Positions 38,960 to 40,438 of a stretch of DNA of 40,990 bases are shown here, piece by piece. Made by a program: the position numbers and the translations under genes. Source of the DNA: an uncultured Verrucomicrobiota bacterium (GTDB lineage: Bacteria; Verrucomicrobiota; Verrucomicrobiia; Verrucomicrobiales; Akkermansiaceae); NCBI GenBank assembly GCA_937867415.1, contig CALMKO010000085.1, positions 1 to 40,990 on the forward strand, written 5' to 3'. Position 1 is the first letter of the stretch, and every line of letters starts with the position of its first letter. The notes beneath the pieces were generated by a model. That model made no database searches and was not told the DNA's origin. It saw only the letters and a list, made by a program, of their open reading frames with translations.

Positions 38960-40438
38960 GTGAGTTACCAGGTCTTCGCCCGCAAATATCGCCCCAAAAC
39001 CTTCGACGATGTCCTCGGACAGGACCACGTCGTGAGGACCCTTCGCAATGCCATCGCCCAAAAACGCCTCGCCCACGCCTACCTTTTTGTAGGTCCGCGC
39101 GGCACAGGAAAAACTTCAACCGCCCGGATTCTCGCCAAGGCTCTCAACTGCACCCACGGCCCCAATGCGGATTTCGACCCCGATGAGGACGTCTGCGTCG
39201 AAATCGCCGAAGGGCGGTCCCTCGATGTGTTGGAAATCGACGGAGCCTCGAACAACGGCGTCGAACAAGTTCGCGATCTTCGCGAATCCGTGCGATTCGC
39301 TCCCGCCCGGGGCCAGTTCAAGATTTTTTACATCGATGAGGTCCACATGCTGTCCAACGCCGCCTTTAATGCGCTGCTCAAGACGCTCGAAGAGCCGCCG
39401 CCGCACGTGAAATTCATCTTCGCCACCACCGAGGCGAATAAAATCCTCCCAACCATTCTTTCGCGCTGCCAGCGCTTCGACCTCCGCCCGATTCCTACGG
39501 AAACCATTTCCAAACACCTGCTCCATATCGCCACCGCCGAGGGCATCACCCTGGACGAAACCGCCGCATGGGCCATCGCCAAGGGAGCGGATGGCGGAAT
39601 GCGGGACGCCCAGTCGATGCTCGACCAGCTCGTCTCCTTCTGCGGGGACAGCATCAGCGAGGCCAATGTGCTCGACGTCTTCGGCTTCACATCGCGGGAA
39701 AAAGTCGCAGCACTCACCCAGACCCTGCTCGCCCGGGATAATCCAGCTGCCCTGTCACTGATCCAAAAAGAAGCAGAGAGCGGTCGAGAACTCTCCCAAT
39801 TGCTCGGCGAGCTGATCGGCTGCCTGCGTGCTCTGTTAGTTGCAAAACTTGATCCATCCGCGGACGGAGAAGGTATCCCCGAAGCCCTTTGGAGCGCCCT
39901 GCTTCAAGCCGCAGACGAATACCCCCCGGACCGGATCTTGTCGGCCATCGACGTTTTTGCGGAAACGGAGGGGCGGATGAAGTGGGCCACCAACAAGCGC
40001 CTGCATTTCGAGTTGGGTGTCATCAAAGCCATTCAATCGATTGGTGAAGTCCGCATCACCGACGTGATCAAGGTCCTCACCAAAGGCGCCGATTTCGTGG
40101 GTGTTCCGTCGTCAATACCGCAGTTAGAAGCTGCGCCGGTCACCACTCAAGTCACCTCGGCACCTGTGGATGTGGCACCCGCGCCAACTCCACCGCCAGT
40201 TGTTAAGCCGGCTGTGAGCGGAATGAAAGGATTGGACTCACTCATCGACGCCGCGCCGGATGTGAGCGAACCGCCGGCCCCCGTCGAACCTCCCGTCTCA
40301 AGGGAGGAAAAGCCCGCGGCTGAAGCCAAGCCAGCCACACCCAATGTCCCTGCCACCTCACCTGCGGAGGATTCCTTTCACAACGACCCACTCATTCAAG
40401 CTGCCTTGGTGAAGTTTGAGGGCAAGGTCCTTATCTGA
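38960..40438 (+). CDS. dnaX: DNA polymerase III subunits gamma and tau, with altered zinc module
   Basis: DnaX is the AAA+ motor of the clamp loader. The 492-aa protein has Walker A GPRGTGKTS (45-53), Walker B IDEVHM (near 132), sensor 1 ATTE and the SRC arginine-finger motif. A Pro/Ala-rich linker (about 380-470) and a short conserved end (NDPLIQAALVKFEGKVLI) follow. The zinc module is unusual. Cys64 and Cys79 are kept, but the two middle ligands are replaced (Asp73 and Glu76), with no change in length compared with E. coli (Cys64, 73, 76, 79). The start is GTG 38960 (MSYQVFARKYRPKTF). I see no A6G-type frameshift signal near the domain border, so a separate shorter gamma form made by slippage is not supported. 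The recR/ybaB neighbours common elsewhere are absent downstream. Confidence 0.96.
   Translation: MSYQVFARKYRPKTFDDVLGQDHVVRTLRNAIAQKRLAHAYLFVGPRGTGKTSTARILAKALNCTHGPNADFDPDEDVCVEIAEGRSLDVLEIDGASNNGVEQVRDLRESVRFAPARGQFKIFYIDEVHMLSNAAFNALLKTLEEPPPHVKFIFATTEANKILPTILSRCQRFDLRPIPTETISKHLLHIATAEGITLDETAAWAIAKGADGGMRDAQSMLDQLVSFCGDSISEANVLDVFGFTSREKVAALTQTLLARDNPAALSLIQKEAESGRELSQLLGELIGCLRALLVAKLDPSADGEGIPEALWSALLQAADEYPPDRILSAIDVFAETEGRMKWATNKRLHFELGVIKAIQSIGEVRITDVIKVLTKGADFVGVPSSIPQLEAAPVTTQVTSAPVDVAPAPTPPPVVKPAVSGMKGLDSLIDAAPDVSEPPAPVEPPVSREEKPAAEAKPATPNVPATSPAEDSFHNDPLIQAALVKFEGKVLI

Follow-up and report, generated by a model that had tools for sequence, protein, structure and literature searches.

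The window, by which we mean the whole stretch of 40,990 nucleotides analysed here, encodes an ordinary DnaX protein (DNA polymerase III gamma/tau subunit) whose four-cysteine zinc module has lost its two middle cysteines, and we conclude, with a probability of about 0.7, that this module has turned metal-free and that the change is fixed in the lineage. The trait, which is also found in Akkermansia, probably arose repeatedly and not in a single phylum only, and zinc is therefore probably dispensable in DnaX.

An ordinary DnaX with an incomplete zinc site

By all membership tests made, the Cys4 ligands excepted, the window protein is DnaX. Its TIGR02397 score is 426.3 bits (427.4 in the search of the whole genome) at a curated cut-off of 250, and the Pfam models DNA_pol3_delta2, DNAX_ATPase_lid and DNA_pol3_gamma3 each match above their own cut-off. 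Domain III, the collar, is present as well (PF12169, 45.1 bits at a cut-off of 24.4, residues 232-359). An earlier reading of this DNA, made from the sequence alone, had called all motor motifs intact. This holds in a 65-row alignment, where Walker A, Walker B, sensor 1 and the SRC motif occupy invariant or nearly invariant columns. Seven of the eight Walker A columns are invariant and P46 is nearly so; in Walker B, D126, E127 and H129 are invariant and I125 and V128 nearly so; sensor 1 is intact, its column or columns being invariant or nearly so. For residues 168-170, which we take to be the SRC motif with its arginine finger, R169 and C170 are invariant and S168 nearly so. A second DnaX copy in the genome was considered and rejected, since the full-length window protein is the one TIGR02397 match above the cut-off and four weaker matches fall below it.

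The sequence-only reading had also stated that Cys64 and Cys79 are retained, that Asp73 and Glu76 replace the Cys73 and Cys76 of E. coli, and that the module has neither insertion nor deletion. A phmmer alignment to the solved E. coli DnaX chains bore this out: the module region is free of gaps, with D73 and E76 aligned to the E. coli CxxC. Instead of the cysteines that a Cys4 site requires at positions 64, 73, 76 and 79, the window protein carries C64, D73, E76 and C79 (Table 1).

Table 1. The dnaX gene of the window, its motor motifs and its altered zinc module (window positions)
Feature	Position	Strand	Basis
dnaX, DNA polymerase III gamma/tau subunit; 492 aa, GTG start	38960..40438	+	ORF list
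Walker A GPRGTGKT, residues 45-52	39092..39115	+	translation; 65-row alignment
Former zinc module, codons 64-79: C64 ... D71-F72-D73-P74 ... E76 ... C79	39149..39196	+	sequence; ungapped alignment to E. coli DnaX
C64	39149-39151	+	
Replacement motif D71-F72-D73-P74	39170..39181	+	column counts in relatives
D73	39176-39178	+	
E76	39185-39187	+	
Predicted helix after the former knuckle, residues 77-83	39188..39208	+	AlphaFold2 model
C79	39194-39196	+	
Walker B IDEVH, residues 125-129	39332..39346	+	translation; 65-row alignment
SRC motif, residues 168-170	39461..39469	+	translation; 65-row alignment

The gamma/tau protein of E. coli, with its Cys4 module (1njg, 1jr3, 8vap), likewise has the AAA+ fold, the motor motifs, the collar and a module of the same length and register, whereas the window protein has Asp73 and Glu76 for Cys73 and Cys76, Phe72 for Pro72, and an incomplete zinc site. 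RFC and the archaeal RFC small subunit have the AAA+ clamp-loader architecture in common with the window DnaX. The zinc insertion is absent from them, whereas the window protein retains the insertion at full length and has lost the ligands alone. According to a passage in PMC6997377, the zinc-binding insertion is typical of bacterial clamp-loader subunits and not of other clamp loaders. Among the papers listed by searches of the open literature, we recognised no description of zinc-ligand loss in DnaX, and a search by term found no passage on zinc in PMC3331839 or PMC12871192.

Loss of the middle cysteines across the class

We read the module in 171 DnaX proteins from 171 genomes, found by homology, 165 of which belong to the window's class and six lie elsewhere in the phylum. 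They were taken from 403 genomes with a match, starting with the best-scoring, to which about one or two from each genus in the class were added. Of 76 genomes of the same family with a match, 64 had their DnaX read; the same-order set is made up of all six such proteins that the homology search gave. Cys73 and Cys76 are absent in all 64 same-family and in all six same-order proteins. Four cysteines are kept in 38 of the 171 (32 in the class and all six from outside it), both middle cysteines are missing in the other 133, and none of the 171 carries just one of the two.

Four-cysteine relatives from the same class, among them L058, L061 and L096, are orthologous to the window DnaX, at 55-59% identity over the aligned part for these three, but differ from it in having four cysteines and Pro72. 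The DnaX proteins of Akkermansia, Haloferula, Luteolibacter, Prosthecobacter, Verrucomicrobium and Opitutus, which were picked by their D-F-D motif (among loci L186-L300), have lost C73 and C76 and carry D-F-D as in the window, and have kept or lost C64, C79 or both depending on lineage.

In a quick tree computed without the module columns, the 133 proteins that lost the middle cysteines make up five clades (70, 23, 20, 18 and two rows). Forcing them together was weakly rejected (p-AU 0.0345, quick tree), and few well-supported branches separate the five clades; starred branches require only two changes. A single loss in the class is weakly rejected, and the middle cysteines may have gone more than once there.

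Some features of individual families were noted along the way. Family f89 holds one genus with four cysteines and another without the middle two (L091/G409 versus L086, L087/G400, G406); the tree joins L091, L086 and L087 with L094 (support 86), and the loss there may be recent. The stretch FDAASNTQVDK is common to L091 and L094. The DnaX proteins of family f5 are short, with open frames of 385-422 aa in L063-L065, L113, L115 and L119 and most of the tail missing. In four contigs (G139:C17, G307:C5, G173:C72 and G242:C103), the DnaX match crosses one in-frame TGA, which may reflect chance similarity beyond the stop, a broken gene or recoding.

Decay of Cys64 and Cys79 beside a persistent Asp73

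Both C64 and C79 are present in all 38 proteins with four cysteines. Among the 133 without the middle pair, 99 still have C64 and 105 still have C79: both remain in 90, C64 alone is lost in 15, C79 alone in nine, and neither is left in 19 (for example L023, L065, L072 and L157). C64 and C79 are retained in 60 and 63 of the 70 rows that make up the window's family and order, and in 14 and 11 of 23, 12 and 18 of 20, 12 and 11 of 18, and one and two of two rows in the remaining clades, so that losses occur inside each of the five, except for C79 in the two-row clade. On the tree, 16 changes are needed for C64 and 14 for C79. Such decay is expected after a metal site is gone, and it makes a class-wide conserved site of two cysteines and two carboxylates hard to reconcile with the data. 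The two cysteines tend to be lost together, in 5.4 versus 0.8 of 12 independent pairs, a tendency that is not significant (median p 0.125).

The replacement motif is widely shared by the 133 proteins, with D71 in 113, F72 in 122, D73 in 118 and P74 in 100. All 38 proteins with four cysteines have Pro at position 72, where the window protein has Phe. Judged from the alignment columns, D73 is independent of the cysteines. It is kept in 83 of the 90 rows with both C64 and C79, in 12 of the 15 without C64 only, in six of the nine without C79 only and in 17 of the 19 without either. In a larger set of 288 rows that includes other phyla, the corresponding figures are 86 of 93 with both cysteines and 27 of 29 with neither, and among 12 independent pairs that differ in C64, D73 is the same in 10.1.

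Position 76 behaves differently. The 133 rows have Asp in 70, Glu in 40, Ser in 13 and other residues in 10 (A, N, H or T among the states). An acidic residue stands there in 79 of the 90 rows with both C64 and C79, in all 24 with one of them missing and in seven of the 19 with neither. Glu76 itself, the state of the window, occurs in 40 of the 90 rows that retain the cysteine pair and in none of the 43 that lack one or both. This pattern may reflect shared descent, or it may point to a residual site in the window's lineage, and it is the main result against a metal-free reading.

Recurrence in other phyla

From their DnaX sequences, other bacteria seem to have reached much the same replacement motif independently. 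Stretches with D-[FY]-D and the conserved bases downstream of it numbered at least 115 in a motif scan; among the matches listed, 107 were named Verrucomicrobiota and eight were not, numbers that are uninformative on frequency because D-[FY]-D was selected by construction and the counts cover the listed matches. One of the eight (L271) was left out of the tree. L187 nests among Verrucomicrobiota, and L198, L224, L283 and L295 form a starred clade within Fidelibacterota. L265 (HRbin41) is nested in its own class, within a starred clade whose other members have four cysteines. The long branch of L210 (named Acidobacteria) lies next to relatives with four cysteines, and its placement is unsure.

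These groups were also sampled by homology. For Fidelibacterota, where 50 DnaX were read of 56 genomes with a match, 47 of the 50 have four cysteines and the other three (L396, L398, L417) read [DE]-Y-D. For the class of HRbin41 and the phylum of L210, the best 30 loci each were taken, with 41 and 60 genomes searched. All 29 rows besides L210 have four cysteines in the latter sample of best loci. The former yielded, among its 29 rows besides HRbin41, 17 with four cysteines, 11 with C-D-C-C and one (L429) with D-F-D-P. In the C-D-C-C loci (L421, L423, L425, L427, L436-L441 and L449), Cys73 is replaced by Asp and the other three cysteines are retained, a state that, going by the residues, is likely a Cys3-Asp intermediate. 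L429 has no module cysteine at all, unlike the five cysteine-bearing members with which it forms a starred clade; its nearest rows are C-D-C-C, and it is 81% identical to one of them. Over the 288 rows, the lost state amounts to 10 changes, at least six of them on starred branches (fast tree with long branches). The rows from Fidelibacterota and from the class of HRbin41 thus indicate that the loss has happened repeatedly, accompanied by a similar motif, and that Asp73 can precede full loss.

A probable metal-free module and its alternatives

The sequence-only reading had further proposed that the structure be modelled. In AlphaFold2 predictions, the fold is kept with or without C64 and C79. 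The model of the window DnaX, built on the 65-row alignment, has a pLDDT of 92 overall and of 94-96 for residues 61-80 (96 for residues 71-80, 93 for residues 81-90), values that do not show stability without metal; AlphaFold2 omits metals. It superimposes on E. coli gamma (1njg_A) with Z 27.1 and an rmsd of 1.9 over 239 residues, and the clamp-loader fold is present, with Z up to 38.6 against E. coli clamp-loader chains. For L292, which has neither C64 nor C79, a helix is predicted at the equivalent place with a module pLDDT of 94-95. We propose that the D-F-D-P turn would replace the zinc-thiolate knuckle and lead into the helix of residues 77-83, and that the AAA+ fold would be held together without metal. 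Phe72 may occupy the space vacated by the metal site, the acidic and Pro residues could cap the turn and the helix, and the window DnaX itself would bind no metal. A helix capping box D73...E76 was considered but not adopted, because the DSSP helix begins at residue 77; our proposal goes no further than a turn or some form of cap.

The sequence-only reading had left two outcomes side by side, a module that has become metal-free and a metal still held by two cysteines and two carboxylates. We favour the former because C64 and C79 were lost repeatedly once C73 and C76 were gone, and because D73 persists without them. The recurrence of the motif outside the phylum, the predicted fold without C64 and C79 and a cysteine-free module in the delta-prime of this genome also count in its favour. 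The latter outcome is the less favoured one: that zinc or another metal is still bound in the module of the window's lineage by C64 and C79 together with carboxylates (D73 plus E76 or D71), regardless of loss elsewhere, we regard as unlikely, at odds of roughly one to four. It gains from the 90 of 133 rows that kept both cysteines, from the high retention of each in the window's family and order, and above all from Glu76, whose restriction to rows with both cysteines lowers our confidence in a metal-free module and raises that in a residual site. The C-D-C-C state, found in 11 of the 30 rows (best loci) from the class of HRbin41, adds that Asp73 is a plausible ligand there, in a Cys3-Asp site. 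Against a residual site, C64 and C79 decay repeatedly while D73 stays even in most rows that have neither. A role of D73 and E76 as fixed metal ligands is further weakened by the variation at position 76 (D, E, S, A, N, H, T) and by D73 not being tied to the cysteines.

It is improbable, though not to the point of neglect, that the module is metal-free and the C64/C79 pair is kept for another reason, such as a disulfide, a redox switch or packing. Their tendency towards co-loss would fit such a pairing, but it falls short of significance, and each cysteine is also lost singly in some rows. A disulfide is, moreover, unusual in the cytoplasm. That the state stems from faulty sequencing or assembly, or from pseudogene decay, was rejected and has a negligible chance of being correct, as it is common to independent assemblies. 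The same altered state is found in L239, a protein from a different assembly with 96% identity over residues 1-275, and the genome holds one full-length DnaX. Close relatives with four cysteines, which would have signalled an error, amount to none of the 70 read in family and order. The suggestion of the sequence-only reading that the substitution is a fixed lineage trait is thereby clearly supported, all 70 sharing the loss.

Under the metal-free reading, full-length modules without zinc ligands represent a natural experiment, and they suggest that the shape of the module matters and the metal does not. They also provide candidate metal-free modules for swapping into E. coli. The existence of C-D-C-C proteins suggests that an essential replication protein can give up a metal site step by step and end with a metal-free fold.

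Zinc elsewhere in the genome

A broader account, to which we give somewhat less than an even chance, would have several independent replacements of the zinc knuckle: in Verrucomicrobiota (there probably repeatedly), in Fidelibacterota, twice in the class of HRbin41 and perhaps in Acidobacteriota. The same metal-free D-[FY]-D turn would have arisen each time in the same register, with one of the routes passing through a Cys3-Asp intermediate, and in the window's lineage the replacement would belong to a broader loss of zinc in which the clamp-loader subunit delta-prime and the ribosomal protein L31 share.

Delta-prime (HolB) of the window's genome (G000:C163, L002 979-2040, minus strand) carries no cysteine in the segment that runs from Walker A to the following strand. 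Since both DnaX and delta-prime are without a full site in this sequence comparison, the clamp loader of this genome is probably zinc-free. Of 70 HolB loci from a search of 80 genomes, 61 could be scored, the remaining nine being without an ORF bearing the expected motif; the HolB zinc site was recorded as none where the stretch read held no C..C..C. The middle cysteines of DnaX and the HolB site are both missing in 31 of these 61 genomes, 14 combine a four-cysteine DnaX with no HolB site, 10 have both zinc sites and six have a HolB zinc site beside a DnaX that lost its own. All four combinations occur, so the two subunits can lose zinc separately.

The single copy of L31 found in the window's genome (G000:C272:10513-10746, L482) is cysteine-free. 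We compared L31 in 30 hand-picked genomes, 15 with a four-cysteine DnaX and 15 with the loss, which except for the window's own genome (G000) were picked by their DnaX state before L31 was seen. All 15 genomes with four DnaX cysteines have zinc-type L31. Among the 15 with the loss, seven have only L31 without the CxxC ligands, six only the zinc type and one both, and one (G356) gave no match. L31 without CxxC is thus found in eight of the 14 DnaX-lost genomes with a match versus none of the 15 others, a comparison that ignores kinship and makes zinc economy as the driver a suggestive lead. The zinc ribbon of primase is intact in the window's genome, which indicates that zinc was not shed everywhere.
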